Origin: an uncultured Blautia sp.
Lineage (GTDB): Bacteria; Bacillota; Clostridia; Lachnospirales; Lachnospiraceae
NCBI GenBank assembly: GCA_946622645.1
Contig: CAMOQF010000012.1
Coordinates: 1 to 32,983 of the forward strand
Length of the DNA stretch: 32,983 bases
Direction: 5' to 3'
Shown piece after piece: positions 5,970 to 31,424 of the stretch. Each line of letters opens with the position of its first letter. Within the stretch, counting starts at the first letter, position 1. The notes below the pieces were generated by a model, which saw only the letters and a program-made list of their open reading frames with translations, did not search any database and was not told the DNA's origin. The translations under genes and the position numbers were made by a program.

Positions 5970-5983
5970 TTAGCTTTCCCTCC

Positions 5984-6493: not shown

Positions 6494-6510
6494 GGTTTTT
6501 CCTCCCTCTC

Positions 6511-6879: not shown

Positions 6880-6896
6880 TTTCTCACTCTCCTCAA

Positions 6897-7436: not shown

Positions 7437-7513
7437 ATGATCTGTCCTCCTACTTAGATTGTCGGAGACGGAAGCGTTCCGCCTCTGTTTTCAGTTTAAT
7501 ATGGCACCTGGAA

Positions 7514-7915: not shown

Positions 7916-7970
7916 GTTAGTTTCCTCCAAATATGTTCAGACTTGACATGTCCTCGTTTCAAATAATATC

Positions 7971-8156
7971 TTACCAGGATGCTTTTTTGACACCCGGGAT
8001 CTGTCCTTTGTAGGCCAGCTCACGGAAGCAGATCCTGCAGATTCCGTATTTTCTCAGATAGGCGTGGGGACGTCCACAGATCCTGCAGCGTGTATACTCT
8101 CTGGTGGAGAACTTTGCGGGGCGCTGCTGTTTGATTTTCATTGCTGTTTTAGCCAT
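7971..8156 (-). CDS. rpsN: 30S ribosomal protein S14, zinc-binding (type Z)
   Basis: The 61-residue product is the short zinc form of S14 in the 30S head. The ribbon [20 protein letters not shown] contains two intact CxxC pairs, and the C-terminus [19 protein letters not shown] is diagnostic. Firmicutes often also carry a longer zinc-free paralogue induced by Zur under zinc starvation; none is in this window. GGAGGAAGTATTC precedes the ATG. The position between rplE and rpsH is conventional. Confidence 0.98.
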
Positions 8157-8180
8157 GAATACTTCCTCCTAAATCTTCCC

Positions 8181-8726
8181 TTATGCGTTCTTTGCAAAAG
8201 GCATGTTGAACAGTCTTAACAGCTCGCGTGCTTCTTCATCGGTCTTGGCGGAAGTAACGAAGATGATATCCATACCTCTCACCTTGTCGATCTTATCGTA
8301 TTCGACTTCCGGGAAGATCAGCTGCTCTCTGATACCGAGTGCATAGTTACCTCTGCCGTCAAACGCGTTGGGATTGACGCCGCGGAAGTCACGCACGCGG
8401 GGAAGCGCAAGGTTGATCAGACGATCTGCAAATTCATACATCTTTTCGCCGCGGAGAGTGGTCTTGCAGCCGATGGACATGCCTTCTCTGATCTTGAAGT
8501 TAGCGACGGACTTTTTAGCCTTGGTAGCCACTGCCTTCTGTCCGGTGATCAGCTCCATGTCAGCGATCGCGGAATCCAGAAGCTTGGCGTTTTCCTTTGC
8601 TTCACCGACGCCCATGTTGACGACGATCTTCTCGAGCTTGGGGATCTCCATCACGTTCTTGTATCCAAACTTCTTGACCATGGCATCCATGATCTCATTC
8701 TTGTAAAGCTCTTTTAATCTACTCAC
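8181..8726 (-). CDS. rplE: 50S ribosomal protein L5
   Basis: The 181-residue protein is L5, which binds 5S rRNA and forms the inter-subunit bridge with S13. Motifs are [40 protein letters not shown], and [20 protein letters not shown], then [20 protein letters not shown]. The start is a GTG at 8726, supported by GGGGG 8 nt upstream and by the family N-terminus ([11 protein letters not shown]). The spacing from rplX is 15 nt. Confidence 0.98.
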
Positions 8727-8741
8727 CTGTTATGCCCCCTC

Positions 8742-9089
8742 TCACTTTCTGGTCTTCTTGGAGGAAATGGTATCGATGACTTTTGTCTCGCCGCCGCCGA
8801 CTTTCGCCACGCGGAACTTTTTGCCATCCTCGATCTTGAAGCCAACGCGCACCGGCTTGTTTTCAAACAGGAGCATCACGTTGGAGATGTTGATCGGAGC
8901 TTCCTTGGAGATAATGCCGCCATTCTGGTTTGCAGCGGACGGTTTGGTGTGTTTGGACACCATGTTCACGTTCTCTACGATGACGGTATTGTCTTTTTTG
9001 TTGACGGCAATGACTTTGCCCTCTTTATCTTTTTCTTTTCCGGCGATGACCTTGACGGTATCGCCCTTTTTGATCTTCATAGCTGACAT
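8742..9089 (-). CDS. rplX: 50S ribosomal protein L24
   Basis: The 115-residue protein is L24, an assembly initiator that binds the 5' end of 23S rRNA. The KOW motif is at the N-terminus ([39 protein letters not shown]). The family core continues with [19 protein letters not shown] and [17 protein letters not shown]. Two ATGs are three codons apart; GGAGGG lies 6 nt before the first, so I use 9089. The C-terminus is slightly longer than in E. coli, ending SSKKTRK. Confidence 0.97.
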
Positions 9090-9102
9090 ACGGCACCCTC
9101 CA

Positions 9103-9471
9103 TTATAATACTTCCGGAGCCAGAGAAACGATCTTCATGAACTTCTTTTCGCGAAGCTCTCTGGCAACCGGCCCAAAGATACGTGTTCCCCTGGGGGTCA
9201 GGTCGTCTTTGATGATGACGGCAGCGTTTTCGTCAAAACGGATGTAGGAGCCGTCTTTTCTGCGGGCACCCTTAACGGTACGCACGACGACAGCCTTGAC
9301 CACATCGCCCTTCTTGACAACGCCGCCTGGTGTTGCATCTTTAACAGTAGCAACGATGGTGTCGCCGATATTGGCATATCTTCTGGTAGAGCCGCCCATG
9401 ACACGAATACAAAGGATTTCTTTTGCACCAGTGTTGTCGGCAACTTTCAGTCTGCTTTCCTGCTGAATCAT
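9103..9471 (-). CDS. rplN: 50S ribosomal protein L14
   Basis: The 122-residue protein is L14, a beta-barrel protein at the subunit interface that contacts 16S helix 14. It shows [20 protein letters not shown], then [20 protein letters not shown] and the C-terminal [20 protein letters not shown]. The length is exactly the family standard. GGAGGATTGCCAGT precedes the ATG. It lies 14 nt after rpsQ and 13 nt before rplX. Confidence 0.98.
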
Positions 9472-9485
9472 ACTGGCAATCCTCC

Positions 9486-9740
9486 TTATTTCACTTTTTC
9501 AACGATCTCAACCAGTCTCCATCTTTTATCTTTGGACAGCGGTCTGGTCTCCATGACCTTGACGGTATCGCCGATGCTGCATTCGTTGTTTGCATCATGG
9601 GCTTTGAGTTTATAGGTTCTCTTCACGATCTTTTTGTAAAGAGGATGTTTGACATGGTCTTCGATTGCAACGACGATGGTCTTGTCCATCTTGTTGCTGA
9701 CAACCTTACCCACACGGGTCTTTCTCAGATTTCTTTCCAC
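9486..9740 (-). CDS. rpsQ: 30S ribosomal protein S17
   Basis: The 84-residue protein is S17, an OB-fold primary binder of the 16S 5' domain. It shows [20 protein letters not shown], then [20 protein letters not shown] and the [20 protein letters not shown] signature near the C-terminus. The start is a GTG at 9740 with GGAGGAAACTATC upstream. The order rpmC-rpsQ-rplN is conventional. Confidence 0.98.
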
Positions 9741-9755
9741 GATAGTTTCCTCCTG

Positions 9756-9968
9756 TTAATTGGAAGCATTGGCCTGCTCAGTGATTGCGGTCTGGATCCT
9801 GGCGATCTTCCTGCGGACATCCTTGATGCGGCTGGTGTTGTCCAGCTGATTGGTCGCATTCTGAAATCTCAGATTAAAAAGTTCTTTCTTCGCAGAAACC
9901 AGTTCGGCATTCAGCTCCGCAGAGGATTTTGCCCTTAAATCATTCATGAAATCTTTATACTTCTTCAC
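9756..9968 (-). CDS. rpmC: 50S ribosomal protein L29
   Basis: The 70-residue protein is L29, a helical hairpin at the nascent chain exit that helps dock trigger factor and SRP. The signature is [20 protein letters not shown] followed by [15 protein letters not shown]. There are two in-frame GTG candidates, 9977 and 9968. I chose 9968 because AAGGCGGTGAT, a one-mismatch version of the full anti-16S sequence, is correctly spaced from it. Either start lies inside the end of rplP; with 9968 the overlap is 14 nt, which implies translational coupling. Confidence 0.93.
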
Positions 9969-10395
9969 TGTTATCACCGCCTTCTAAGTCTGCACGAGAA
10001 ACGATTTTACATTTGACTGGCAACTTGTGCATGGCAAGACGCAATGCTTCGCGGGCGATCTCTTCGGATACGCCGGCGATCTCGAACATTACGCGTCCGG
10101 GCTTTACGACTGCTACCCAGTATTCCAGAGTTCCTTTACCGGAACCCATACGGGTTTCAGCAGGCTTTGCAGTAACAGGTTTATCCGGGAAGATCTTGAT
10201 CCAGACTTTACCGCCACGTTTGATATAACGGGTCATGGCGACACGGGCAGCCTCGATCTGGTTGGATTTGATCCATGCGGGCTCAACAGCCACAAGACCG
10301 AAATCGCCATAGTTGATCTTATTTCCTCTTAACGCTTTTCCCTTCATGGAACCGCGGAACTGTTTACGACGTTTTACTCTTTTGGGCATTAACAT
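9955..10395 (-). CDS. rplP: 50S ribosomal protein L16
   Basis: The 146-residue protein is L16, which positions tRNA near the peptidyl transferase centre. It shows [20 protein letters not shown], then [20 protein letters not shown] and [20 protein letters not shown]. An ATG at 10395 overlaps the rpsC stop (TAATG), with a second ATG two codons later; both are compatible with the purine-rich AAGGAAGGGAG upstream. The C-terminal coding bases contain the ribosome binding site of rpmC. Confidence 0.97.
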
Positions 10396-11051
10396 TATTT
10401 ATCGCTCCCTTCCTTAGATGCCTTAGTGGGAAGCACTTCACCGTTGTAGACCCATGCCTTTACGCCAACCTTGCCGTAGGTGGTGTCTGCTTCCGCGAAA
10501 CCATAGTCAATGTCTGCACGAAGTGTCTGAAGCGGGATCGTTCCTTCACTGTAGAACTCGGTACGGGCGATATCCGCGCCGCCAAGACGTCCGGAAACGG
10601 CCGTTTTGATACCCAGTGCGCCTGCCTTCATGGTTCTCTGCATGGTGGACTTCATGGCGCGGCGGAAAGAAATACGGTTTTCCAGCTGCAGGGCAATGTT
10701 CTCAGCCACCAGCTGTGCGTCTCTGTCCGGTCTCTTGACCTCTTTGATGTCGACGATCAGCTTCTTGTCGGTATATTTTGCCAGTTCGGCCTTGACCTTC
10801 TCGATCTCAGCGCCGCCCTTGCCGATGACGATGCCCGGCTTTGCGGTGTAGATGATGATCTTGACTCTGTCGGATGCTCTTTCGATCTCGATCTTGGAGA
10901 CGCCGGAGCTGTACAGTTTCTTCTTCAGGAAATTCCTGATGTTATAGTCTTCTACTAAATAATCAGCGAAATCATTTTCTGCGTACCATCTGGAATCCCA
11001 GTCCTTGATGATGCCGACTCTAAGACCATGCGGGTTAACTTTCTGTCCCAT
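10395..11051 (-). CDS. rpsC: 30S ribosomal protein S3
   Basis: The 218-residue protein is S3, part of the mRNA entry channel and helicase activity of the 30S subunit. It begins [20 protein letters not shown]. The KH domain carries [20 protein letters not shown], and the C-terminal domain includes [20 protein letters not shown] and [30 protein letters not shown] precedes the ATG. It overlaps rplP by one base. Confidence 0.98.
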
Positions 11052-11062
11052 ACTTCTCCTCC

Positions 11063-11452
11063 TTACTTCTCATCCAGCACGATTGTGATATGGCTGGTCC
11101 TCTTTTCGATCCGATAAGCTCTGCCCTGTGCTCTGGGCTGGATCCTCTTCATTGTCGGTCCCTTGTTGGCATAGCATTCTGCGACGTAGAGATTATCTCT
11201 GTTCATGCCGTTGTTGTTCTCGGCATTGGCGATCGCAGATTCCAGCAGCTTTTTCAGGACGGAGGATGCGTATCTCGGATTGTAGGTAAGGATTCCAAGC
11301 GCGCTCTGCACATCTTTGCCGCGGATCACGTCCAGGACATAACACGCCTTGGTGACGGAAATTCTGGCATAAGATAACTTTGCAGACGGTCTTGTCTCTC
11401 TGTTATTCTCATTTCTGGCTCTTTTTATCTTGCTTCTATGTCCCTTTGCCAT
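11063..11452 (-). CDS. rplV: 50S ribosomal protein L22
   Basis: The 129-residue protein is L22, whose beta-hairpin lines the nascent-peptide exit tunnel and is a site of macrolide resistance. It shows [40 protein letters not shown], and the tunnel hairpin region [20 protein letters not shown] followed by [12 protein letters not shown]. The hairpin tip has no visible insertion or duplication. AAAGGAGTCATTTTACA precedes the ATG. Confidence 0.98.
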
Positions 11453-11485
11453 TGTAAAATGACTCCTTTCGTCAGATTAAAGCTG

Positions 11486-11767
11486 TCAGCGGACGCCGGA
11501 CTTCTTTTCGTCTTTTCCGTGTCCTCTGTATGTTCTGGTGGCGACAAACTCTCCGAGCTTGTGTCCGACCATATCCTCTGTGACATAAACCGGCACGTGC
11601 TTTCTTCCGTCATGTACAGCAAAGGTGTGTCCGACGAAGGACGGGAAGATGGTAGAACGGCGTGACCAGGTCTTGATTACGGCTTTATCGTTTGCAGCAT
11701 TCAGCGCGTCGACCTTCTTGAGAAGGTGTTCGTCTGCAAATGGTCCTTTTTTCAGTGAACGAGACAT
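11486..11767 (-). CDS. rpsS: 30S ribosomal protein S19
   Basis: The 93-residue protein is S19, in the 30S head with S13. The N-terminus [20 protein letters not shown] and the central [40 protein letters not shown] are family hallmarks, and it ends in a basic tail ([15 protein letters not shown]). GGAGGAGAAAGA precedes the ATG. Order rplB-rpsS-rplV is conventional. Confidence 0.98.
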
Positions 11768-11782
11768 TCTTTCTCCTCCTTA

Positions 11783-12628
11783 TTATTTCGATAATGCTCT
11801 GCCATCGCGTCTTCTTACGATGAGCTTGTTGGACTGTTTGTTCTTCTTTCTGGTCTTGAGACCAAGAGCGGGCTTGCCCCAGGGAGTGGAAGGACCAGGA
11901 CGGCCGATGCCGGTCTTGCCTTCGCCGCCGCCGTGCGGATGGTCATTCGGGTTCATGACGGAACCACGGACGGTGGGACGGATGCCCATGTTGCGTTTAC
12001 GTCCAGCTTTACCGATGTTGATAAGGTTGTGGTCACCGTTGCCGACAACGCCTACGGTTGCTCTGCAGACGATGGGGACCATTCTCATTTCGCCGGAGGG
12101 AAGACGAAGGGTAGCGTATTTGCCTTCCTTAGCCATCAGCTGTGCGCCATTGCCGGCGGAACGGACCATCTGGCCGCCCTTTCCGGGATGGAGCTCGATA
12201 TTGTGGATCATGGTACCGACCGGGATCAGTTCCAGCGGGAGGCAGTTGCCTACGCGGACCTCGGCCTCGGGGCCGTTCATGACCGTAGCGCCGACCTTCA
12301 GACCTTCGGGAGCAAGGATGTAGGCCTTTTCTCCGTCTACGTAGTGGATCAGTGCGATGTTGGCTGTTCTGTTGGGATCATACTCGATCGTGGCTACCGT
12401 TGCGGGGATGCCGTCTTTTCTTCTCTTGAAGTCGATGATCCTGTATTTTCTTCTGTTGCCGCCGCCGCGGTGACGGACAGTGATCTTGCCCTGGTTGTTG
12501 CGGCCTGCGTTTTTCTTAAGAGACACGGTGAGGGATTTTTCCGGCTTGGTCGCGGTGATCTCAGAAAAATCAGAGCCGGTCATATGTCTCCGGGACGGTG
12601 TATATGGGTTATAGGTTTTGATTCCCAT
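11783..12628 (-). CDS. rplB: 50S ribosomal protein L2
   Basis: The 281-residue protein is L2, one of the most conserved large-subunit proteins and required for subunit joining and peptidyl transferase activity. It shows [20 protein letters not shown], then [20 protein letters not shown] and [20 protein letters not shown]. The conserved C-terminal [20 protein letters not shown] contains the functionally important His. AAAGGAGTAACATCACA precedes the ATG. A 7-bp stem-loop (12644-12650 with 12663-12669) abuts this ribosome binding site. Confidence 0.98.
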
Positions 12629-12689
12629 TGTGATGTTACTCCTTTCGAATGAATTATCGTGTATTCGAACACATATCGCAAAGCTTTAA

Positions 12690-12989
12690 TCAAAGCCCTT
12701 CAAAGATCTCGATATCCTTGCTGTCTTCTGTCAGGGATACGATGGCCCTCTTGGTGGCTGCGGTCTTGCCCACAACCAGGCCGCGGCGTCTGTTCTTGCC
12801 GCACTTGTTCATGGTGTTGACGTTTTTGACCTTGGTCCCTTCGAACATCTTCTCGACGGCTTCCTTGATCTGTGTCTTGGTTGCATCGGGATGTACCTGG
12901 AAGGTGTATTTCTTTTCGCCCATCATGTTCATGGACTTTTCAGTGATGATCGGTTTCTGAATGACGTCATAATATTTCAGATCTGCCAT
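12690..12989 (-). CDS. rplW: 50S ribosomal protein L23
   Basis: The 99-residue protein is L23, the exit-tunnel docking site for trigger factor and SRP. It shows YYDVIQKPIITEKSMNMMGE, then KYTFQVHPDATKTQIKEAVE and FEGTKVKNVNTMNKCGKNRR. The ATG overlaps the rplD stop by one base in TAATG, so translation is probably coupled. A 61-nt gap to rplB holds the small stem-loop noted there. Confidence 0.98.
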   Translation of the reverse strand: MADLKYYDVIQKPIITEKSMNMMGEKKYTFQVHPDATKTQIKEAVEKMFEGTKVKNVNTMNKCGKNRRRGLVVGKTAATKRAIVSLTEDSKDIEIFEGL

Positions 12990-14990: not shown

Positions 14991-16097
14991 TTATTCCTCG
15001 TCTGTGTCTTCATCCAGAAGATCGGAGTAATCAAACAGTGTGACGTCGGTGATGTCGTCCTGGAAAACGTCCGGGCTCTCACCTGCGGAAGCGGCTTCCC
15101 TGGCGAGCTGGGAAGAATTCCAGCCGGGGATGGCCCTTTTGCGGATCTCCTTGATCTCGGGTTCCTCCAACACATCGTCGAAGAAGGGTTCCGGCTCATC
15201 GTCCGGTTCCGGTTCGTCCGGAAGGTCGAGCTCGACTTCTTCAAGCGCTTCCGGCGCGATGCTGGCAAGGGGAGAAACTTCCTCTTCCTCGGCAGGCTCA
15301 TCGGCTGCAGCTGCATTTGCGGCGGCGGCGACCTCCTGGCGAAGGTATTCATGCGCCTCTTCCTCAGCGGGCTGCTGCGTCACGGGAGCTGCGTTCTGGG
15401 GAACATATTCTTCTTCGTCGTCCTCTTCATCGATGTCGTCCACAAAGCCGCCTGTGTGCACTTTACGCTTTTCGGCTTTTTTGCGGGCTTTCCGGGCAGC
15501 GCGGCTGTCTTCGTCGTATTCCTCGGCCTGTTCTTTTCTGGCTGCCTTTGCTTCTTTTTTCAGCTGTCTTTTTGATTTGCCGCTGTCCTCGTAGTCCTCG
15601 TCGTAATCGTCGTCGGAGCTGTCATCTTTTTTCCAGAGCTCCGCGATCACATAGAGGATGATCAGGAACAGAAGGACCAGGCCCAGGATGATCAGGCCTT
15701 CCATGCTCTTGGTGGCCACCTGCAGGTAGCCTACATAGCCGATGGTAATGACAACCTTCTGTACATAGCCTCTGTTGATGGCGACCGTGATATCCTTGGA
15801 GTCTGTTACGGACTGATCCTTTACGACGCCCGTGCCGTTGGCAAGATTGATGGACTCAATGTTGTAACGATAGGTGTTGCCGTCCTCTTCCACCAGGATG
15901 GGATCGCCCTGATATACATCCTCGGATTTTACGGGGATGGCGTAAGTGACGCTGCCCATGGGAAGATTTGTCTTTGCGTTGGGATCGTCCACAACGACTG
16001 TACGAACGCCGAAGAACGGCGGGATCGTAAGCCCCAGGGCTACGATGATCACACAGATCACTACCAGGTGGACAATAAATTTCAGGAATCTAGACAT
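14991..16097 (-). CDS. Signal-peptidase-like (S26-type) membrane protein lacking catalytic residues, with acidic C-terminal tail
   Basis: The 368-residue protein has a membrane segment at about 6-27, an extracytoplasmic domain at 30-125, a second membrane segment at 134-153, and a very long charged, probably disordered cytoplasmic tail with Asp/Glu runs and Lys/Arg patches. The outer domain resembles SipW-type signal peptidases (MGSVTYAIPVKSEDVYQGDP, NTYRYNIESI, VVITIGYVGYLQ). The catalytic Ser expected before the PMGS stretch is missing, and the expected THR is TYR (Tyr76). I therefore infer a non-catalytic relative, not a working peptidase. The start has AAGGAGC upstream and the gene has its own promoter and terminator. 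Its function is unknown. Confidence 0.65.
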   Translation of the reverse strand: MSRFLKFIVHLVVICVIIVALGLTIPPFFGVRTVVVDDPNAKTNLPMGSVTYAIPVKSEDVYQGDPILVEEDGNTYRYNIESINLANGTGVVKDQSVTDSKDITVAINRGYVQKVVITIGYVGYLQVATKSMEGLIILGLVLLFLIILYVIAELWKKDDSSDDDYDEDYEDSGKSKRQLKKEAKAARKEQAEEYDEDSRAARKARKKAEKRKVHTGGFVDDIDEEDDEEEYVPQNAAPVTQQPAEEEAHEYLRQEVAAAANAAAADEPAEEEEVSPLASIAPEALEEVELDLPDEPEPDDEPEPFFDDVLEEPEIKEIRKRAIPGWNSSQLAREAASAGESPDVFQDDITDVTLFDYSDLLDEDTDEE

Positions 16098-16226: not shown

Positions 16227-16289
16227 TGATATCAATAAGAATATTTTATGTTAACATCGTCCATCAAATGTGACGATTGGGAGGGTATT

Positions 16290-17189
16290 ATGAGTTTTTT
16301 ATGGTTTTTGTCCGAATATCGTTCCCCGGCAGCCGATGCTTTTTTTCAGGGCGTCACCTGGTTCGGAGAAGAGATCTTCGCCATCGTAGTCATCTGCTTT
16401 CTGTACTGGTGCCTGAGCAAAAAAGCCGCTCTGTTTCTCGGCTTCTCCTATTTCTCGGCAGGTCTGGTGCTCCAGGCGCTGAAGCTTACCTTCCGGATCG
16501 AACGGCCGTGGATCCTGGATCCGGACTTTAAGGCGGTCGAATCCGCCCTTCCGAAGGCGACCGGTTATTCCTTCCCGAGCGGGCACACGCAGAGCATCAC
16601 CTCCATGATGGGGTCTCTGGCTCTGATGGCTCCTAAGAAATGGCAGAAATGCATCTGTATCGTTTTTCTCATCCTGGTCCCCTTTTCCAGAATGTACCTG
16701 GGCGTCCACACGCCTGCCGACGTGATCGTAAGCTTTCTGGTATCGATGACCTGCGTCGTCCTGTGCTACTGCTTTATATATAAGAAGGAAAACATACAGG
16801 ACAATCCTCTCCTGATCGTTCTGATCCTTCTGGCTGTCAGCATTGCAGTGACCGTCTATGCAGCTATCCTGTGCAGCACATATCACATCGATCCGGCTCT
16901 CTCCACCGACTGCTTTAAAGCGACCGGCGCCGGGATGGGTTTTGCCGTCGGCTATTACCTTGAAAGCCGCTTTATCCGTTTTGAGATCCCTAAGGACCTG
17001 AAAGTAAAAATCCTGCGCTTCCTGATCGGAGTCGCTCTGTCGGTCCTCATCCTGAAGGGCCTGAAGCCCATCATCGGCGAGTCTCTTCCGGCTTCCTGCA
17101 TCCGGTACTGCGTCACGATCATCTGGGTGCTCGCCGGCTATCCCGCAGTGTTTCAGAAGACAGAAAAACGTTTCCTGAAAGCCGCCTGA
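16290..17189 (+). CDS. PAP2-family membrane phosphatase
   Basis: The 299-residue integral membrane protein carries all three phosphatase signatures of the type 2 phosphatidic acid phosphatase family: KLTFRIERP, SFPSGHTQS and SRMYLGVHTPAD. These residues form the active site on the outer face of the membrane. Such enzymes hydrolyse lipid phosphates such as undecaprenyl pyrophosphate or phosphatidate; the substrate here is not known. About six to eight hydrophobic segments follow one another, with extra segments after the catalytic core. The ATG at 16290 is preceded by GGGAGGG with 5 nt spacing, so I do not use the in-frame ATG at 16248, which has no ribosome binding site. Confidence 0.9.
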   Translation: MSFLWFLSEYRSPAADAFFQGVTWFGEEIFAIVVICFLYWCLSKKAALFLGFSYFSAGLVLQALKLTFRIERPWILDPDFKAVESALPKATGYSFPSGHTQSITSMMGSLALMAPKKWQKCICIVFLILVPFSRMYLGVHTPADVIVSFLVSMTCVVLCYCFIYKKENIQDNPLLIVLILLAVSIAVTVYAAILCSTYHIDPALSTDCFKATGAGMGFAVGYYLESRFIRFEIPKDLKVKILRFLIGVALSVLILKGLKPIIGESLPASCIRYCVTIIWVLAGYPAVFQKTEKRFLKAA

Positions 17190-22153: not shown

Positions 22154-23173
22154 TCACTGGTAAAGATCTGCCATCTCGATGATATTATCGGATGTGATCC
22201 GGACGGGCGGTCCGAGAACGATCTCGCTTCCGCCGTCCGATGCGGGAAGGACTGTATATTCCGTATCTTCCAAGCGCAGCAGGTCTCCTGCTTTCCCGGA
22301 AAAAGAACCGTCTATGAGCGAAACGGTGGCGTAAGCGGCCAGGCGGCCCAGCTCTTTCATATCCCACAGAAAAAAGCAGGGACAACAGAACTCTTCCGTA
22401 TCGCCCGTAAAGCCGATCATCTCCGACGGAAGCCCCAGTCCCGTCAGGAGACACCGGGAGGCGTTCTCCTGCAGGTATTTCGCTGCGGAAGCGATCCCCA
22501 CCGTGGTCGGAGCGCAGATGACCTTCAGGTCCGGGTGCTCCTTCAAAAGCTTTTCGGTCAGATCTGTGCACAGGCGGGGATCATCGTCCCCGTATACGAC
22601 ATCGGTCAGCGTGAGCCTCTCGTACTCTTCCTCCTCCATGAGGGTCTGCATCTCTTCGATCCACGCGTTCTGGTTGGAAGCCGTGCCTGACCCCGAGAGG
22701 ATCGCCCACTCGCCCTCTCCTCCGGTGATCTCACAGACCGCGTCCAGCAGGACACGGGCTACATCCGGCGCAGGGGACTGATTGATAAAGATCTCGCGGC
22801 TGTCCGGTTCCGGAGCGGAGTCGAAAGAGGAGACCCTGATCCCGCTTTCCCTGACACGATGCAGGACTTCTTCCAGCGCCGCCGCATCGTTCACCGAGAT
22901 GCAGAGGGCATCCGGATGGCTTTTGATCACCTCTTCCAGGATGCGGATCTGTGCGTCCGCCGTAGCGGCCTCCGGATAGATGGTCTCGACAGCCGCGCCC
23001 AGGCGCAGCGCTTCCTCCTTGAAGGATACGGCAGCGACCTCAAAGAAGGCGTTCCCGGCGGATTTGCCCACCAGTGCGATCCGCATGCCATCGCTCTCTT
23101 CGGCGGCCGCCGGCACGGTAAAGCCAAGGAGCAGCGCCCCCGACACCAGGAGCATAGTCAGTTTCTGTTTCAT
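22154..23173 (-). CDS. Exported RhaS-like sugar-binding protein (orphan, no ABC partners)
   Basis: The 339-residue protein has a classical signal peptide (MKQKLTMLLVSGALLLGFTV followed by PAAAEE) without a lipobox Cys. The mature part is a type I periplasmic-binding fold. It resembles rhamnose-binding RhaS proteins over long stretches: SGSGTASNQNAWIEEM, VVYGDDDPRLCTDL, ICAPTTVGIASAAKYL, TGLGLPSEM and EIVLGPPVRITSDNI. No permease or ATPase gene is adjacent. An unusual FCCPCFFLWD stretch sits in the C-terminal lobe. The ATG overlaps the carrier-protein stop by 4 nt. A ligand such as rhamnose is inferred from similarity and from rhaB nearby; a sensory or scaffolding role is equally possible. Confidence 0.8.
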   Translation of the reverse strand: MKQKLTMLLVSGALLLGFTVPAAAEESDGMRIALVGKSAGNAFFEVAAVSFKEEALRLGAAVETIYPEAATADAQIRILEEVIKSHPDALCISVNDAAALEEVLHRVRESGIRVSSFDSAPEPDSREIFINQSPAPDVARVLLDAVCEITGGEGEWAILSGSGTASNQNAWIEEMQTLMEEEEYERLTLTDVVYGDDDPRLCTDLTEKLLKEHPDLKVICAPTTVGIASAAKYLQENASRCLLTGLGLPSEMIGFTGDTEEFCCPCFFLWDMKELGRLAAYATVSLIDGSFSGKAGDLLRLEDTEYTVLPASDGGSEIVLGPPVRITSDNIIEMADLYQ

Positions 23174-23406
23174 AAGTCTTCTTCCTGAAGTTCTGTGATC
23201 AGCTCCTGCATTGCCTGCACCGTGTTAAAGTTGTACGGCTCCAGGTCCGCCACGTCGATATCAACGTCAAAAGCTTCGTTCAGTTCACTGGCGATGGTGA
23301 TGATGTCAAAGGAATCCAGGATCTCGTCGTCGATCAGCTTCGTCTCGTTCAGAAAATCGACGTCCGGACGGATGTCCTGCAGGATCTCAAGAATCTTCTC
23401 TTTCAT
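23170..23406 (-). CDS. Acyl/peptidyl carrier protein of the dlt-like cluster
   Basis: The 78-residue acidic protein has the size and helix pattern of carrier proteins such as DltC. The phosphopantetheine attachment site is Ser32 in ILDSFDIITIASEL, with DSF in place of the usual DSL or DSM. It presumably carries the acyl or aminoacyl group activated by the adenylation enzyme at 27250 and delivers it to the MBOAT protein at 24275. AGGAGGTAACCGACC precedes the ATG, which lies 20 nt inside the end of the GNAT gene. Its start and stop both overlap neighbours, so it is very likely translated coupled to them. Confidence 0.9.
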   Translation of the reverse strand: MKEKILEILQDIRPDVDFLNETKLIDDEILDSFDIITIASELNEAFDVDIDVADLEPYNFNTVQAMQELITELQEEDL

Positions 23407-24259
23407 GGTCGGTTACCTCCTGTTCTGCTATGTATTGTGTGACACTCCTGTCCTGAATATGCAATCCGGCTTTCTGGCACATGCCCAGCGAAGCCGTATT
23501 GGTATCGGAGACCCAGGTGAGGCAGCGTTTCAGGCCGGCCGCCTTTGCGTCCGCCATCCATGCAAGCTGCAGCGTCAGGCCGATGCCTTTCCGGTAATAG
23601 TCAGGATGTGTGACTGCATGACGGCCTTCGCTTTCCCTTCGGGTGTTTCTCCACCAGTATGTGGCAATTATGCGGTCTGTGCTGCTTTCCTTGATCAGGA
23701 ACAGCTTGTCGGTCTCTTTCAGCTCCAGATGCTCCAGAGGGATGTCGCCGATCTCCAGATAAGCTTTCCAGAGCGCGGCAGCCTCTTCCATGTCATCCTG
23801 CGTTCCGAAGGCGCAGGCAAGGCCGATCTCCTGCAGCTTCCGCTTTCGGTTTTCCAGTTCATCAAAAGGCCAGTCACCGGATTCCGGCAGTTCCATATCC
23901 AGCAGGAGGCTTCTTTTGTCCGGAACAAATCCGGCTTTGAAAAGACGGGGCTCCAGATCCCGGATATACTGTTCCCGCCTGCCTCTTCCATCGATCTCAC
24001 GGAGAAGCACAGGCCTGCCTGTCTCCGGAGGCGCGAAGTCCTCGCCGCCCTTCCAGTAATAGATCAGGTTGTAATGATCCCCTTCGTCGATCAGGAGATA
24101 CAGTCCGTTCTCAAACGTCTTCCGGTACAGTCTTCCCTCCGCGATATACATCCGCAGCAGTTCAGGCGTCAGAGAAGAATTGGTCTGCACGTCCGGCAGC
24201 CTTTTTTTGCTGTCCCGCACTGTCTCTTTATAATCTTCTGTCGAAAGGATCTTTTCCAT
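23387..24259 (-). CDS. GNAT-family acetyltransferase-like protein
   Basis: The 290-residue protein has a C-terminal GNAT core with the acetyl-CoA loop HPDYYRKGIGLTLQLAWMAD (RKGIG) and the following beta4-alpha4 region LKRCLTWVSDTNTASLGMCQ, KAGLHIQDRSVTQYI. The first ~140 residues are not a family I recognise; they include WKGGEDF and a GDWPFDE segment and may be a second, degenerate GNAT half. It lies between the MBOAT gene (15 nt upstream) and the carrier-protein gene (20 nt overlap), which suggests that it acts on the same substrate or on the carrier-bound group. GGAGG is 8 nt before the ATG. Confidence 0.8.
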   Translation of the reverse strand: MEKILSTEDYKETVRDSKKRLPDVQTNSSLTPELLRMYIAEGRLYRKTFENGLYLLIDEGDHYNLIYYWKGGEDFAPPETGRPVLLREIDGRGRREQYIRDLEPRLFKAGFVPDKRSLLLDMELPESGDWPFDELENRKRKLQEIGLACAFGTQDDMEEAAALWKAYLEIGDIPLEHLELKETDKLFLIKESSTDRIIATYWWRNTRRESEGRHAVTHPDYYRKGIGLTLQLAWMADAKAAGLKRCLTWVSDTNTASLGMCQKAGLHIQDRSVTQYIAEQEVTDHEREDS

Positions 24260-24274
24260 TCATGTTTCCTCCGG

Positions 24275-25867
24275 TCAGAACTGTTCGTAGATAAAGCTGG
24301 CGCTGTTGTATTCCGCGCCGTAGATGCCGAAGACCAGGATCACGAGGATCGCCCCGATATAGACGATCCATCGGAAGATCAGCGGCTGTCTTGCGATGCC
24401 CTCCCGGATCCGGATCCCTTTTTCATGCAGCAGGTCCGTGATCAGAAGTACACAGACGGCGATCAGGAGCAGGACCCAGTTCGGGCTGTCAAGGCCAAGC
24501 TCGTTCAGCCTTCCGTCTACCCAGAAGGACAGATCCCACCACTGCACGGTCATGTTTTTAAACACATGAAGGGCCGTCATGACGCTCCCGGACCGGGAAA
24601 ACACCCTGCCCAGGGATATCAGCGTGAACGTCCGAAGGATCATGAACAGTCTCCATGAGAAGGGCGTTCCCTCGATTCCGGCCAGTTTTTTCATCCTGGC
24701 GTAGATCTCCGGCAGCAGAATGCCTGCCGCGATGATCAGGCCGTTCCAGAGCCCGTAAGCGATATATTTCCATTCCGGCCCGTGCCACAGACCCACCAGG
24801 GCGTAAACGATAAAGCTTGCCAGAAGGGCCGGCAGCCTCTTTCCGACAAAGGCGCCGAAGATCTTCCGGGTCTTTTTGGAGATCGTGACAAACGGTCCTG
24901 ACAGTGTCAGCGGGTAAAACACATAGTCCCGCATCCAGCTGCCCAGGGTGATGTGCCATCTGCGCCAGAAGTTCTCGACGCTGTCGGCAAAATACGGCTG
25001 GCGGAAGTTCTCTTCAAGCTCGATCCCGAGGATCTGCGAGACGCCCCGGGCCATATCCATACCTCCGGAAAAATCCGCGTATACCTGCACGCTGTAAAGC
25101 ACGGCTCCCAGAAAGAGCAGAAGCCCCGTGTACTGTTTTCCGGAATCGAAGATCTGCGTGACCGGGATCATCACCCGGTCCGCGATGATCAGTTTTTTCA
25201 TCCATCCCCAGAGGATCAGCTGCAGGCCGAAGGTGCATCTCAGGTAGCTGAAGCGGTGGCTTGCGTACAGCTGCTCTGCGAGCTGATGATGCCGCGCGAT
25301 GGGTCCCTGGACGATCTGCGGGAAGAAGGACATGAACAGCAGGAACCTGAAGAAATTCCTGTCCGCTTCTTCCTTTCCGCGATAGACATCCACCATGTAG
25401 GCGATGGCCTGCAGGGTGTAGAACGAGATCCCCAGAGGCATCAGGAACTTAAACGATGGAAGCTCGAATCCCAGAAGGCGCAGCCCCTGATTGGCTGTGG
25501 ATGCAAAAAAGCGATAGTATTTCAGGACCAGCAGCATCCCGAGGACCACCAGGATCGCACAGAACAGAAGGACTTTTTTCCTTCTTTTCACGCTTTCTCT
25601 GTACTTCTTTTTTTCTTCTTTGGAACTCCAGTCCTTCTCCTTCAGAAGCTTTTTGGAGGTCCTGTCGATGTTCGAAAGCCAGAGCCCCGTCAGAAACGCG
25701 GTCAGAGCGGCGGCAGCGAGAAACACCACGAGCCATCTGCTGTTCAGCCAGAAAAAGCACAGGCTCGCAAGCAGAAGCACGACCCACTGCCATCTGCCGG
25801 GCGTGATGAAATACACAAACACTGTCAGTGTGATAAATATCAAAAATGAAAAAGAAACAAAAGTCAT
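24275..25867 (-). CDS. MBOAT-family O-acyltransferase (DltB/AlgI-like)
   Basis: The 530-residue polytopic membrane protein is a membrane-bound O-acyltransferase. Family marks are LGISFYTLQAIAYMVDVYRG, FPQIVQGPIARHHQL, DFSGGMDMARGVSQILGI, NFWRRWHITLGSWMRDYVFY and the invariant His in GLWHGPEW (His362). These enzymes pass an acyl group from a cytoplasmic carrier across the membrane to an extracellular acceptor: D-Ala to teichoic acid for DltB, acetyl to alginate for AlgI. The lysine-rich loop at residues 70-100 is cytoplasmic. AAGGA lies 8 nt before the ATG. It sits between the SGNH and GNAT genes with spacings of 24 and 15 nt. Confidence 0.93.
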   Translation of the reverse strand: MTFVSFSFLIFITLTVFVYFITPGRWQWVVLLLASLCFFWLNSRWLVVFLAAAALTAFLTGLWLSNIDRTSKKLLKEKDWSSKEEKKKYRESVKRRKKVLLFCAILVVLGMLLVLKYYRFFASTANQGLRLLGFELPSFKFLMPLGISFYTLQAIAYMVDVYRGKEEADRNFFRFLLFMSFFPQIVQGPIARHHQLAEQLYASHRFSYLRCTFGLQLILWGWMKKLIIADRVMIPVTQIFDSGKQYTGLLLFLGAVLYSVQVYADFSGGMDMARGVSQILGIELEENFRQPYFADSVENFWRRWHITLGSWMRDYVFYPLTLSGPFVTISKKTRKIFGAFVGKRLPALLASFIVYALVGLWHGPEWKYIAYGLWNGLIIAAGILLPEIYARMKKLAGIEGTPFSWRLFMILRTFTLISLGRVFSRSGSVMTALHVFKNMTVQWWDLSFWVDGRLNELGLDSPNWVLLLIAVCVLLITDLLHEKGIRIREGIARQPLIFRWIVYIGAILVILVFGIYGAEYNSASFIYEQF

Positions 25868-25891
25868 GCCGGTCGTCCTTATACCTTTGTC

Positions 25892-27235
25892 TTATGAAAT
25901 CCGCAGATCGACCCCGGCAAAGGAGAAATTGCCAAAAAGGTCTTCTCCGTTCTCCGTCCGGAAGGGAAGCACCGTGTAGTAGAGCCTTGCCGCTTCTTCC
26001 GTATGGGTGTCCGTCCAGGTAAAGGTTTCCCCGGACGTCTCTGCTGTCTGCTTCCAGAAGGTATCACCTTCAATATTCGTCTTGCGGTAGATCCGGTACC
26101 CGTCTGCGCCGGGCGTTTCGGTCCAGGACAGGACAGCATGCTGCTCCTCGTCCGCGCGAACCGTCATCTCGGGAGCCTGCAGATCATAGTCCCTCGGCGC
26201 GTGGTCCCTCTCTATGTCAAGGGTCCACGGATCGATGTAATCTCCGTAAAGCGTGACGGATGTATCCCAGCTTTCCAGACTGTCCCGGCCTCGTTTGTCC
26301 GTGAAGCCGTAATTTTCTATCAGGTAATCGCTCAGATACTCCGTGAACTTGATGGAGCCGTGAATATTCAGATGGTTGGAATCGTGAAAATCCACCGCTT
26401 CCTGCACGCCGTAGGTATCTCCGAGCCCCATCATGTCCAGACATTCATAGCCTCTGTCCCGGACCATCTCTTCCAGATAGTTCAGTCTTCCCTGGCTTTC
26501 CTTGTCGAGCACCTGCGGTACGGTGACGAACAGGACTCTCACCTTCTCCCGGTCAAGATAATCGAGCAGCTCTCCCATGACCTGAAGAGTCTCTTCATCG
26601 GGCTGAGTGCTCTCCTCTGTAACGTCGAAGGTCTGAGGACTGCTTGTCTGCAGAAAATACTTGTAGTAATAAGCCCCTTTCAGCCCGTTATATGTATGGG
26701 TGAAGTCTTTGCTGGTCATTTCGGACCAGCCGGAATGGAACCGGAGCAGAGGCAGATAGAACTCCAGCCGGTTTTCGATGGAATAATTCTTTCTGGAGAG
26801 CAGGTCCTGCATCATTTCCAGCTTGTTTACAGACCAGGGCATGTAATCGAGATTGCGGTGAAGCGCTTTGTCGTTGAACCCCATCGACTTGAAGGAATTC
26901 AGGTTCAGGATGAGCAGCGAATCCGGCTGCCTCTTCAAGGCTTCTTTGACTCTGTACACATAGCTCTGCGCCGGCATGCTGGGGATCCCGTAGGAAAAGA
27001 CCGTGATCCCGTGGTCCTTCCAGGCCAGCGGGGGCTGAAAGAACGAGAACTCGTGACTCGCTCCGATATAGACCGCGTCCAGGCTGTTCTCCTCTTCCTG
27101 CAGGAAGCCCTGTTCTCTTGAATATATGCTGTAATCCCTGATCCCGAAAAAGTGCTGCAGGATCGCGATGCAGACAAAGAGCACGGCAAAAAACGCAATA
27201 CACTTTACGAGGATCTTTATCGTGTTTTTTTTCAT
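25892..27235 (-). CDS. Membrane-anchored SGNH-type (DltD/AlgX-like) protein with C-terminal FN3 domain
   Basis: The 447-residue protein has one N-terminal membrane segment (about 8-30) and an extracytoplasmic SGNH-like domain. The nucleophile block is VYIGASHEF (Ser60), and the distal block FHDSNHLNIHGS supplies Asp285 and His288. Residues 354-445 form a fibronectin type III module (APEMTVRADEEQHAVLSWTE, then ADGYRIYRK). In the dlt system DltD is the matching partner of the MBOAT protein; I infer the same job here. I chose ATG 27235 because the hydrophobic segment then begins correctly, although the ribosome binding site (AAGGAT) is close. The longer frame from 27355 lies inside the adenylation gene. 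Confidence 0.8.
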   Translation of the reverse strand: MKKNTIKILVKCIAFFAVLFVCIAILQHFFGIRDYSIYSREQGFLQEEENSLDAVYIGASHEFSFFQPPLAWKDHGITVFSYGIPSMPAQSYVYRVKEALKRQPDSLLILNLNSFKSMGFNDKALHRNLDYMPWSVNKLEMMQDLLSRKNYSIENRLEFYLPLLRFHSGWSEMTSKDFTHTYNGLKGAYYYKYFLQTSSPQTFDVTEESTQPDEETLQVMGELLDYLDREKVRVLFVTVPQVLDKESQGRLNYLEEMVRDRGYECLDMMGLGDTYGVQEAVDFHDSNHLNIHGSIKFTEYLSDYLIENYGFTDKRGRDSLESWDTSVTLYGDYIDPWTLDIERDHAPRDYDLQAPEMTVRADEEQHAVLSWTETPGADGYRIYRKTNIEGDTFWKQTAETSGETFTWTDTHTEEAARLYYTVLPFRTENGEDLFGNFSFAGVDLRIS

Positions 27236-27249
27236 ATCCTTGATCGGCC

Positions 27250-28821
27250 TTATCCGATTTTCCCTGCCAGATAGTCCTCCCGGATCCTGACGCGGTCCGT
27301 CTTCTGATGGCTGGTAAGCGGCAGGGCGTCCATCCGGACAAAACGGGTCGGCCACATGTATTTCGGAAGTTTTGAAGAGATTGCTTTGACGATCTTTGTT
27401 TTGAGGGCAGGCCCTTCTGTTTCCTCCGGATCCGTCAGAGGTGACAGCTGGAAGACACAGACGATGTTCTCCTTCTGTGCATCATAGAGACAGCAGGCCG
27501 CGGCAATAAAATCGAGGGCGTTCAGCGCCGCTTCGATCTCTCCCAGTTCGATCCGGTGTCCCATGTGTTTGATCTGGGAATCCGCGCGGGAGGAGAAGTA
27601 GATCCTTCCTTCGTCGTCATAGTAACCAAGGTCTCCGGTGTGGTAGATCGTATTCCTGTATGCCGGGAACTCCGGATGGTCCGTAAATACCTCCGCTGTC
27701 TTTTGAGGATTGTTCCAGTAACCCAGAGCGAGCCCGGTTCCTTCCACACAGATCTCTCCCACGACGCCGGGCTCCAGGATCCGTTCGTTTTTATCGTTCA
27801 GCAGGAACACCCGCGTGTTCGGGAAAGCTTTGCCTGCGCTGAGGGGCTTGTCGGGATCCACCGGTTTTTCAATGATGCAGTACGTGCAGTTGCAGGTGAT
27901 CTCGGTAGGCCCGTACAGATTGACAAAGACAGCTTCAGGGAAATGGTTCATCCAGTGCTCAAGCGAAGAAGGAGGCATCACCTCACCGGAGAACATCACA
28001 TACTTTAAATTCACCGGTTTTTGCGTCTGTACTTTGTCGAAGGTCCTGAAATCCGAGACGATCCGGACGGCCGAGACGGCCCAGATCAAAGTGTTGATCT
28101 CTTTTTCGGCCAGATATTCCACCAGAAGCTTCGGCATGCCGAATTTCTTCTTGGGAATGATCTCCACCCGGCCTCCGCAGTAAAGCGCGTTGTAGATGTC
28201 CTTCACGGAAACGTCAAAATCAAAGGGGGCCTGATTCCCGAACACACTGTCCTGCCCGAAAGCAAAGACCTCAGAAAAAGCGTTGACCAGATCCAGCACC
28301 GAGCGGTGGCAGATCAGGACGCCTTTGGGAACGCCGGTGGACCCGGATGTAAAGATGGAATACAGGGGATCCGTATCGATGATGGAATCCGTCATGATCC
28401 GGAAACGCTTCTCATCCGCTTCACTGATCTCTTCTTTTTCCAGGATCTCCGATACCGGAGGGCAGGGGCAGATCTCTGTCCTGCGATCCGTTCTGGCATC
28501 CAGGATCCCGATAGGAGCAAGCTCCGAAAGGATCACCTTCCGCCTTTCCACAGGCAGGGCCGGATCGAGCGGCACATAAAAGTTTCCGCTGGCGGCGATG
28601 CCCAGAAAAGCCAGTACGGACAAAGCGTTTCTGTCGATCAGGACTGCGACCGGCCTCTTGGTCTGTCCGTCCGCGAAGTTCCGGTCCACAAAGCACGCGA
28701 TCTTTTTCACCGCGTCCAGATATTCATGGTATGAAAAGCTGCGGGACTCGTCCGCAAGCGCCTGATGATCAGGAATCTCTTCCGCATTTCTCTGCAGATA
28801 ATATAATACACTGTGAATCAA
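27250..28821 (-). CDS. Adenylation enzyme related to D-alanine--carrier protein ligase (DltA-like)
   Basis: The 523-residue ANL-superfamily enzyme activates a carboxylate with ATP and loads it onto a carrier protein. Core motifs are intact: FTSGSTGVPKG (157-167), FDFDVSV (200-206), NLYGPTE (301-307), YHTGDLG (393-399), RADSQIKHMGHRIELGEIE (from 412) and the catalytic Lys507 in SHQKTDR. Length and order match DltA. In DltA the residue in the MFCGEV motif that shapes the D-Ala pocket is Cys; here the motif is MFSGEV (Ser278), so the substrate may differ. The start is a TTG with GGAGAG upstream. It follows rhaB after a terminator hairpin and is the first gene of the run. Confidence 0.88.
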   Translation of the reverse strand: MIHSVLYYLQRNAEEIPDHQALADESRSFSYHEYLDAVKKIACFVDRNFADGQTKRPVAVLIDRNALSVLAFLGIAASGNFYVPLDPALPVERRKVILSELAPIGILDARTDRRTEICPCPPVSEILEKEEISEADEKRFRIMTDSIIDTDPLYSIFTSGSTGVPKGVLICHRSVLDLVNAFSEVFAFGQDSVFGNQAPFDFDVSVKDIYNALYCGGRVEIIPKKKFGMPKLLVEYLAEKEINTLIWAVSAVRIVSDFRTFDKVQTQKPVNLKYVMFSGEVMPPSSLEHWMNHFPEAVFVNLYGPTEITCNCTYCIIEKPVDPDKPLSAGKAFPNTRVFLLNDKNERILEPGVVGEICVEGTGLALGYWNNPQKTAEVFTDHPEFPAYRNTIYHTGDLGYYDDEGRIYFSSRADSQIKHMGHRIELGEIEAALNALDFIAAACCLYDAQKENIVCVFQLSPLTDPEETEGPALKTKIVKAISSKLPKYMWPTRFVRMDALPLTSHQKTDRVRIREDYLAGKIG

Positions 28822-28845: not shown

Positions 28846-28879
28846 AAAAAGTTGCCATCAGCCTTGGGAGCTGATGGCA
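28846..28879 (-). terminator. Intrinsic terminator downstream of rhaB
   Basis: A perfect 10-bp stem (28870-28879 with 28853-28862) with a 7-nt loop is followed on the minus strand by AC and five U residues. It separates rhaB from the adenylation gene; no good promoter is visible in the 25 nt that remain, so the next operon may rely on readthrough or on a promoter inside rhaB. Confidence 0.8.
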
Positions 28880-28892
28880 AAGGGATACTGAT

Positions 28893-30329: not shown

Positions 30330-31295
30330 TCAGAAGATAATGTCGCCGCCCTGATCGTCCGGAGTAACCGGGACGACCGGATCGGGATTGACAGGCTGCG
30401 GATCGACAGGCTGCGGATCGACAGGCTGTGGATCGACAGGCTGCGGATCGACAGGTGCCGTGGTCGGTTCTGACGGTGCCGTGGTCGGTTCTGACGGTGC
30501 CGTGGTCGGTTCCGACGGTGCCGTGGTCGGTTCTGACGGTGCCGTGGTCGGTTCCGACGGTGCCGTGGTCGGCGTGGCCGGCGCTGTGGTCGGCGTCGCG
30601 GGCCGGACAGGCGTACGTGTCGGGGTGCGGGCCGGTGTGCGCGGTGCTGTGGTCGGCGTGGGCCTTGAAGGCTCTCTGGTCGGCTCCGGCGTAGGCGTCG
30701 GTTCTTCGGTGGGCGTCGGAGTGACCTCCGGCTCCATCGCGGCGATCTCCAGCGCTTTGGTGGTGACGGGCGCTCCGGTCACCACATCCTCGTACGCAAG
30801 GAAGATCACGTCGTCCTCAAACATGATGTCGCACTCGGATATTTTATCGAAGGGGAACTCATGCAGCGTATGGACGCTGTCGTCCTCGAAGGTAAGAGCC
30901 ACGTTAAACTTCCGTTCTGCGGGCGCATCCGCGCGCTCGTCAGGTTTGAAGCAGAGGATCCTCGTTTCCGCCGCGGCGTAAACGTCCCCGTCGGCCAGAA
31001 GATTGCCGGTATTCCACTCAGTATCCCGTTCTGCGACGACCACAGATTTGATCTCATGGCTGGTCCTGTTGGTGACCTTGATCTCATAATCGGCCATCTC
31101 ATGCGTTCCGATCAGTTTATACTCTTCCTGCTCCGGAGTGGGCTCCGGCGTGGGAGTCTGGGTGACCTCCGGTGCGGCTTCCTGTTTTTTGTCAACCTCT
31201 GCGGCTTTTTTACGGTCCGTGTTCTCCTCGCAGCCTGCGAAAACAAACGCCATCGCGGTGCAGATGAGCAGGATCTTCAATGATCTTTTTTTCAT
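30330..31295 (-). CDS. Repeat-containing lipoprotein
   Basis: The 321-residue protein begins MKKRSLKILLICTAMAFVFA with a lipobox ending in GC (Cys22), so it should be lipidated and surface-anchored. A globular part at about 50-190 (YKLIGTHEMADYEIKVTNRT) is followed by a Pro/Thr-rich stalk. The stalk contains five perfect TTAPSEP heptads and four VDPQP pentads, then an acidic end DDQGGDIIF. I chose ATG 31295 for the signal peptide and the GGGAG site upstream; the frame from 31424 begins in the promoter. The function is unknown. The low-complexity stalk suggests spanning of the cell wall. Confidence 0.85.
   Translation of the reverse strand: MKKRSLKILLICTAMAFVFAGCEENTDRKKAAEVDKKQEAAPEVTQTPTPEPTPEQEEYKLIGTHEMADYEIKVTNRTSHEIKSVVVAERDTEWNTGNLLADGDVYAAAETRILCFKPDERADAPAERKFNVALTFEDDSVHTLHEFPFDKISECDIMFEDDVIFLAYEDVVTGAPVTTKALEIAAMEPEVTPTPTEEPTPTPEPTREPSRPTPTTAPRTPARTPTRTPVRPATPTTAPATPTTAPSEPTTAPSEPTTAPSEPTTAPSEPTTAPSEPTTAPVDPQPVDPQPVDPQPVDPQPVNPDPVVPVTPDDQGGDIIF
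30391..30450. repeat. 15-bp tandem repeat, four copies, in the lipoprotein gene
   Basis: The plus-strand unit ACAGGCTGCGGATCG is repeated four times without gaps; the third copy has one C-to-T change. It encodes VDPQP on the minus strand. Copy number changes would keep the reading frame. Confidence 0.95.
30454..30558. repeat. 21-bp tandem repeat, five copies, in the lipoprotein gene
   Basis: The plus-strand unit GGTGCCGTGGTCGGTTCTGAC occurs five times in tandem with a single synonymous T/C difference in some copies, followed by a partial copy. It encodes TTAPSEP on the minus strand. Near-identity at silent positions suggests recent expansion. Confidence 0.95.
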
Positions 31296-31395
31296 GATGT
31301 TCTCCCTTCCACTTTTTGAGCAGCCCTGAAATGGCTGTCTGTAGTCGGTCCTGATCAGCCGGTCTCTGTCAGCCGGCAACAATAAGCTGAATATA

Positions 31396-31424
31396 ATTGT
31401 AGCATAAAGAAAACTTAAATACAA
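31396..31424 (-). promoter_or_regulatory. Predicted promoter of the lipoprotein-rhaB operon
   Basis: On the minus strand TTGTAT (31419-31424) and TACAAT (31396-31401) are 17 nt apart. The transcript would have a leader of about 95 nt that contains two copies of CCGGCTGA and a small CAGCC/GGCTG hairpin before the ribosome binding site. Confidence 0.65.

Follow-up and report, generated by a model that had tools for sequence, protein, structure and literature searches.

A non-canonical dlt-like gene cluster with a putative tailoring acyltransferase in a Blautia genome

A stretch of 32,983 nucleotides from an uncultured Blautia sp. (assembly GCA_946622645.1, contig CAMOQF010000012.1, positions 1 to 32,983; here called the window) carries five adjacent genes on its minus strand, within positions 23170-28821, which code for an amino acid adenylation enzyme (A), an SGNH-type protein with an FN3 domain, an MBOAT acyltransferase, a GNAT protein and a carrier protein (C), in that order. 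On balance, we favor the view that they form a carrier-dependent, dlt-like surface acylation machine in which the cargo is tailored on the carrier. In this scheme, A would adenylate an amino acid that is most likely acidic (Asp- or Glu-like) and load it onto the carrier, where the tandem GNAT would N-acylate its amino group. The DltB-like MBOAT would move the acyl group from the carrier to a tyrosine in its own C-terminal hexapeptide, and the SGNH protein would esterify it to a hydroxyl group on a cell surface polymer; the substrate, acyl donor, acceptor and order of steps are those that we infer. Among the titles and abstract openings listed by full-text literature searches, in a collection with no preprints and few subscription papers, none described a dlt-like cluster whose slot holds a decarboxylase, a formyltransferase or a GNAT.

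A second dlt-like system beside the canonical operon

The five-gene set reported in a preliminary description of this DNA, made from the sequence alone, is real. Intergenic gaps are 14 bp between A and the SGNH gene, 24 bp between the SGNH and MBOAT genes and 15 bp between the MBOAT and GNAT genes, while the GNAT and carrier genes overlap by 20 bp. A (27250-28821, 523 amino acids [aa], TTG start) is a stand-alone, DltA-like adenylation enzyme, with 209 bits for the Pfam AMP-binding family and 321 bits for TIGR01733, above the cutoff of 317.4. Against the DltA equivalog TIGR01734 it scored 299 bits, under the cutoff of 559.85 that the DltA of the same genome passes with 568.8 bits. The MBOAT (24275-25867; PF03062, 49 bits) had two matches in a sequence search of the PDB, both of them DltB, at an E value of 0.001, and reached 157 bits against the DltB equivalog TIGR04091 (cutoff of 375). 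The carrier (23170-23406, 78 aa; PF00550) has the phosphopantetheine site LDSFD with its serine; its best PDB match is DltC (E value of 7e-5), and it scored 32 bits against the DltC model PRK05087 (cutoff of 68).

The SGNH-type extracytoplasmic acyltransferase (25892-27235, 447 aa, best start the ATG at 27235) gave no Pfam or NCBIfam match, FN3 included, in scans that used the longer reading 27355-25892, and the sole match of the genome to the DltD family PF04914 sits on another contig (C84). Its structure model (predicted local distance difference test score [pLDDT] of 85.8) consists of an N-terminal membrane helix, a core and a C-terminal FN3 domain at approximately residues 350 to 447. The domain matches FN3con 4u3h with a target template modeling (TM) score of 0.72, so that the FN3 domain of the preliminary description is visible in the model, although it lacks a Pfam match. 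The core gave weak fold matches to GDSL 4rsh, PatB 7tjb and DltD 3bma (TM score of 0.27 to 0.33 for the last). Residues G58, S60 and H288 were invariant in 18 aligned homologues. FN3 was carried by only 3 of these 18 proteins in the alignment, which was read by eye, and was discarded as a family trait.

Contig C84 of the assembly (2.5 Mb in 186 contigs; completeness of 93%) bears a canonical dlt operon, made up of the DltA mentioned above, DltD (309.8 bits), the intervening DltB and DltC, and an open frame whose end, FVYSQF, is like that of DltX. Since this operon sits on another contig, the window cluster is a second system and cannot be the only dlt of the genome, which agrees with the earlier view of a machine that is dlt-like yet not dlt. 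The expectation that such clusters generally stand alongside a canonical dlt was not confirmed. We examined 25 other genomes, selected because they carry a cluster of this type; several are incomplete drafts, which makes absences of DltA soft. DltA exceeded the cutoff in one (G064, 560.9 bits) and fell just under it in another (G018, 540.8 bits), and the remaining 23 had no match to the DltA model above 334 bits. D-Alanylation of the surface influences host interaction as well as resistance to cationic peptides. If the proposed machine were at work in many gut Firmicutes, surface charge and recognition would not be predictable from dlt alone, given these 23 genomes.

The window MBOAT ends in FIYEQF, a DltX-type acyl shuttle hexapeptide. 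According to PMC12148441, acyl transfer in the Dlt pathway depends on a carrier and on DltX, a separate protein whose FXYXXF tyrosine acts as the acyl shuttle. In other MBOAT-SGNH pathways there is no carrier, and the FXYXXF motif is found at the C terminus of the MBOAT itself; FIYEQF fits this motif. There is no room for a separate DltX microprotein in the window cluster, with gaps of 24 bp at most, and the hexapeptide sits on the MBOAT instead. The trait is shared: among 62 complete MBOATs from the 80 related loci described below (6 cut or split ones were excluded), F.Y..F occurs within the last 12 residues in 42, and 61 have ..Y..[FYV] at the end. The cluster thus resembles the dlt operon (DltA, DltB, DltC, DltD and DltX) in its adenylation enzyme, carrier, DltB-like MBOAT and SGNH protein, and probably in a carrier thioester as the donor, but differs in its pocket (see below), in the lack of a DltD match, in an extra tailoring enzyme and in the fusion of the shuttle hexapeptide to the MBOAT. 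With PatA/PatB and AlgI-type O-acetylation it shares an MBOAT with its own C-terminal hexapeptide and an SGNH partner, but it has an A enzyme and a carrier, which, according to PMC12148441, are lacking in those acyl-coenzyme A (acyl-CoA)-using pathways. A carrier donor combined with a built-in MBOAT shuttle would be a hybrid mechanism, different from both pathways described there.

A nearly constant adenylation pocket and an interchangeable slot enzyme

To place the cluster among its relatives, we used the best 80 of at least 586 confirmed relatives of A, found in a genome collection scan with an alignment of seven A enzymes; as best-scoring relatives, they lean toward the window A. By their record labels they come mostly from Lachnospiraceae or other gut and rumen Firmicutes, and a few carry other labels, such as Chloroflexi (L052) and Coriobacteriaceae (L055). 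The carrier, MBOAT and SGNH genes lay within 8 kb of A and on the same strand in 38 of the 48 loci where the sequence extends 8 kb or more to either side of A, so the gene set is not a chance association. What varies is a slot beside A and the carrier, occupied by a pyridoxal phosphate (PLP)-dependent decarboxylase similar to BtrK in 45 loci, by a tandem GNAT in 12 and by a formyltransferase in 5, with no slot enzyme found in 18. The commonest orders were A-decarboxylase-C-MBOAT-SGNH (22 loci), A-GNAT-C-MBOAT-SGNH (7, or 9 with an extra SGNH gene) and A-C-MBOAT-SGNH (7).

The profiles used for slot labeling were derived from a subset of these loci, and checks against Pfam covered five decarboxylases (of 45), two formyltransferases (of 5) and three GNATs (of 12; that of L052 had a match below threshold). 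Several loci are cut by contig ends, and those without a slot enzyme include three (L042, L076 and L114) with an incomplete view or a core gene not found; in addition, L044 and L050 share DNA with L034 and L035, and L124 lies on the same contig as L097. L064 was labeled as a decarboxylase locus although its gene run also holds a GNAT: positions 2864-12713 read carrier, GNAT, short-chain dehydrogenase/reductase, a second AMP-ligase, MBOAT, SGNH, A and decarboxylase.

The decarboxylase of L062 had BtrK, the L-glutamyl-[BtrI carrier] decarboxylase, as its best PDB match (E value of 2e-31), with diaminopimelate decarboxylase just behind, and the near-full-length slot decarboxylases retain the PLP lysine motif (43/43) and, in most cases, the cysteine motif (38/43). 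For the formyltransferase of L057, the top match was a GDP-amino-sugar formyltransferase, followed by Fmt and, at a lower rank, by the formylation domain of LgrA. Natural fusions were also found, of A with a formyltransferase in L066 (a remnant persists in L063) and of a decarboxylase with the carrier in L103. Loading of an amino acid on a free carrier and its editing there are likewise found in the VinN/VinO/VinL, BolO/BolN/BolC and BtrK/BtrI systems, and counterparts to their decarboxylation and N-acylation exist in the wider family described here; those systems feed a polyketide, peptide or aminoglycoside, whereas here the parts stand with an MBOAT and an SGNH protein. PMC7756342 describes or proposes on-carrier decarboxylation followed by N-acylation for Asp-type substrates. 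The LgrA initiation module (formylation domain, A and carrier) is similar to L066, L047, L056 and L057, where a formyltransferase is fused to or lies beside A, but in these loci A precedes the formyltransferase and an MBOAT and SGNH protein replace peptide assembly. An AMP-ligase paired with a PLP decarboxylase is also seen in the exosortase A-associated proteins TIGR03098 and TIGR03099, although the window A (194 bits) and five slot decarboxylases (162 to 194 bits) scored far under the respective cutoffs of 592 and 478. The window cluster itself has no BtrK-type PLP decarboxylase.

The pocket of A is much more constant than the slot. At GrsA positions 235, 236, 239, 278, 299, 301, 322, 330 and 331 (a numbering set by an anchor fragment), the window A reads DVKSMSLCN, unlike the canonical DltA of the same genome (DLMSLCTVA). 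Among 88 distinct non-canonical A enzymes, a count that omits L124 and the A of L032 (short), L034 and L035, K239 was found in 85, Asp235 in 86 and DVKS.S.CN in 75. DVKS pockets are found at every one of the 45 decarboxylase and 5 formyltransferase loci. The GNAT loci show more variety, their 19 distinct enzymes reading DVKS[ML]SLCN (10), a VD-ending pocket such as DAKSFALVD (7) or VARGFTHAS (2).

One pocket with different slot enzymes suggests that the same amino acid is loaded and then edited. That amino acid should have two carboxylates, because decarboxylases similar to BtrK require a free carboxylate adjacent to the amine. K239 fits a carboxylate, with precedents in a Glu pocket with K239 and in microcystin pockets with R239. 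From these sequence features, the substrate of A is most likely an acidic amino acid, Asp- or Glu-like. A literature text search for known pocket codes found none. In the descriptions given by PMC7756342 and PMC11253843, Asp230 and Ser299 of VinN correspond to GrsA positions 235 and 301, and an A236V change shifted TycA to a beta-amino acid. The window A has D235 and S301 as in VinN, the basic K239, and a V236 that recalls the TycA change; it lacks the R331 of the VinN/BolO type, with an asparagine at that position.

The possibility that the cluster is a rearranged or duplicated dlt operon, which D-alanylates teichoic acid with the GNAT as an incidental passenger, appears quite unlikely in the light of these data. 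The best PDB matches of MBOAT and carrier are indeed DltB and DltC, A matches DltA models well though under the cutoff, and no slot enzyme was found in 18 loci; however, the DltA, DltB and DltC scores are far under their cutoffs, the pocket differs, a canonical dlt is already present, and the GNAT recurs, in 4 of 5 other genomes in one gene order, in a search that did not use A (see below). The preliminary description had held that a simple rearranged dlt operon would come with an A that loads D-Ala, without another dlt operon in the genome and with the GNAT gene absent from most homologous loci. The pocket of the window A is unlike that of DltA and the operon on C84 contradicts the second expectation; the third is what we found, 12 of the 80 loci having a GNAT.

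If related clusters swap their editing enzyme, the decoration may be exchangeable. A broader proposal, possible but put forward here only tentatively, is that of a widespread family, mostly in gut Firmicutes, in which a conserved A would load an acidic amino acid through its distal carboxyl, the exchangeable slot enzyme would set the charge of the decoration before export, and the MBOAT would unite Dlt carrier use with the built-in shuttle of PatA. A decarboxylase would then yield a cationic omega-amino acyl ester, the absence of a slot enzyme a zwitterion, and a GNAT or formyltransferase an anion. Natural product carrier chemistry would thus be joined to cell wall modification. Some relatives (L063 and, by sequence reading, L033) have a YfhO-like membrane protein and a glycosyltransferase of family 2 as neighbors, which hints at a glycosylated cell wall polymer as the acceptor.

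Recurrence and role of the GNAT protein

The window GNAT (23387-24259) passes PF00583 by a narrow margin (21.7 bits; cutoff of 20.7) and was modeled as a tandem GNAT (pLDDT of 85, predicted TM score of 0.73). Among the solved folds listed, the nearest by TM score included mycothiol synthase MshD (2c27) and MAB_4324 (0.58 each), with VipF first by E value. MshD acetylates a cysteinyl amine. Editing of the carried amino group, suggested in the preliminary description, is now the role that the sequence comparisons best support for the GNAT, since formyltransferases and BtrK-like decarboxylases fill the same place.

A search of 61 relatives detected a GNAT homologue in seven genomes, the source genome included. 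The seven matches in the six other genomes comprised five in full A/C/MBOAT/SGNH sets (one of which, L032, has a short A frame), one with A and carrier only and one with MBOAT and SGNH only. A class-wide GNAT profile search that made no use of A (391 genomes, E value of 1e-15) recovered at least five other genomes, a lower bound as at most six candidates per genome were scored. A-GNAT-C-MBOAT-SGNH was found in that order in four of the five, one match being the contig of L097; the fifth match was partial, and no cluster was seen in the 14 kb around it. Recurrence mostly within full sets indicates that the GNAT is rare but tied to such clusters; as a cluster part it is recurrent, as had been supposed, without being universal. 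In all 12 GNAT-labeled loci of the 80 it lies between A and the carrier, which is not so in the window, L030, L031 and L032; the window order differs, with the GNAT between MBOAT and carrier. At L033 (6822-15824), a GNAT occurs with an MBOAT and an SGNH protein, no A or carrier having been found; this set adjoins a PP-loop protein (weak QueC match), a large membrane protein and glycosyltransferase-like genes.

Several observations weigh against tailoring of an acidic amino acid on the carrier. The first concerns the target of the GNAT: WecD, a TDP-fucosamine acetyltransferase, is among its fold matches, and GNATs also acetylate nucleoside diphosphate-amino sugars. The GNAT and the formyltransferases, whose best PDB match is a GDP-amino-sugar enzyme, might therefore modify an amino sugar of the acceptor polymer and not the carried amino acid. 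We regard this as very unlikely, considering the position of the GNAT between A and carrier in the 12 labeled loci, the A-formyltransferase fusion, and the frequency in the same slot of a decarboxylase similar to BtrK, which would not be expected to act on sugars.

Secondly, the A enzymes of the GNAT loci L030 and L031 have VARGFTHAS pockets. With the amine-binding Asp235 missing, they should not hold a free alpha-amine, and judging from the pocket their substrate is probably not a free amino acid. This would suit a GNAT that N-acylates the free amino acid, as N-acetylglutamate synthase does, before A loads the N-acyl form, and the GNAT of L044 weakly matches the N-acetylglutamate synthase family (19.4 bits; cutoff of 280). 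Tailoring before loading is nevertheless unlikely for the family, since Asp235 is kept in 86 of the 88 distinct A enzymes, as in A enzymes that take free amines, and the A-formyltransferase and decarboxylase-carrier fusions favor action at the carrier.

Thirdly, the window GNAT has YRKGIG where R/Q-x-x-G-x-G/A is expected, and a search for this acyl-CoA loop motif missed 3 of 13 GNATs of the 80 loci. Fold matches to Sbb17 and Sba18, aminoacyl-tRNA-dependent peptide synthases, at 16 to 19% identity, raise the idea that the GNAT-fold protein adds a second residue to the aminoacyl carrier. That role is highly improbable in our view: the loop motif is kept in the other 10 of the 13, and the best sequence profile matches of the GNAT are acetyltransferases. 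For A, the shortened beta13-beta14 loop of VinN (PMC7756342 and PMC11253843) is absent from the window enzyme, so that distal-carboxyl activation is only a possibility.

The last of these points comes from phylogeny. In a tree of A (86 rows, quick method), the window A groups with L036, L037 and L041, loci without a slot gene and with no GNAT in their stretches (L036 is a 4.8-kb contig). The other parts have different kin: the carrier and SGNH protein are closest to L029, L055 or L076, the MBOAT to L055, L049, L045 and L029, and the GNAT to L029 and L106. This gives the cluster a mosaic appearance, which is consistent with an exchange of A enzymes sharing one pocket and implies that the GNAT is not an old partner of this particular A. 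Over the tree as a whole, presence of the GNAT required 8 state changes, at least 6 of them forced by starred branches, compared to a mean of 14.9 after shuffling. The GNAT was gained or lost several times, yet it is clustered on the A tree.

Flanking genes and further clusters of the genome

The G+C content of the cluster (0.536) is close to that of its surroundings (0.530). A RhaS-like sugar-binding protein (22154-23173, minus strand; TIGR02637, 233 bits, cutoff of 342) follows the carrier gene, its start overlapping the carrier stop by 4 bp, a point missing from the preliminary description; it is possibly cotranscribed with the carrier. At L029, an SGNH protein, not a RhaS-like one, comes after the carrier. 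A rhamnulokinase gene (30296-28893) lies just upstream of A, so that rhamnose genes flank the cluster on both sides. A terminator-like hairpin (28852-28880, minus strand, 12 pairs and a T-rich tail) separates it from A; it is a consensus match only, of which the region has 14 compared to 8.1 in shuffled sequences. Because of this hairpin, the cluster probably opens a new transcript, and we considered the rhamnulokinase an unlikely member of the operon. Further along, at 30330-31424, there is a protein without a Pfam match that looks secreted and ends in a tail of proline/threonine repeats (TTAPSEPTTAPSEP..., PVDPQPVDPQ). The small genes at approximately 2.5 to 14.7 kb, which we take to resemble ribosomal protein operons in size and order, were tested as phage genes: 8 of 10 scanned proteins had no PHROGs match, and the other 2 had matches of unknown function (the scan included 14991-16097 and 16248-17189, outside that range).

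The genome holds further sets of this kind. Four more MBOATs (on contigs C39, C26, C5 and C50) end in the shuttle motif, with no A or carrier found in the roughly 1.5 kb of sequence that flanks the match on either side. A third non-canonical set, on contig C157 and cut by the contig end, has a carrier, an MBOAT and an SGNH gene, the latter reading as two overlapping frames (1770-3127 of L019). The second, on contig C20, consists of MBOAT, SGNH, carrier and A. An arginase family protein (PF00491; 939-1814 of L018) lies directly upstream of its MBOAT, and its A has the pocket DIHSMALYV by column mapping; in the beta13-beta14 loop this A has one residue fewer than the window A.

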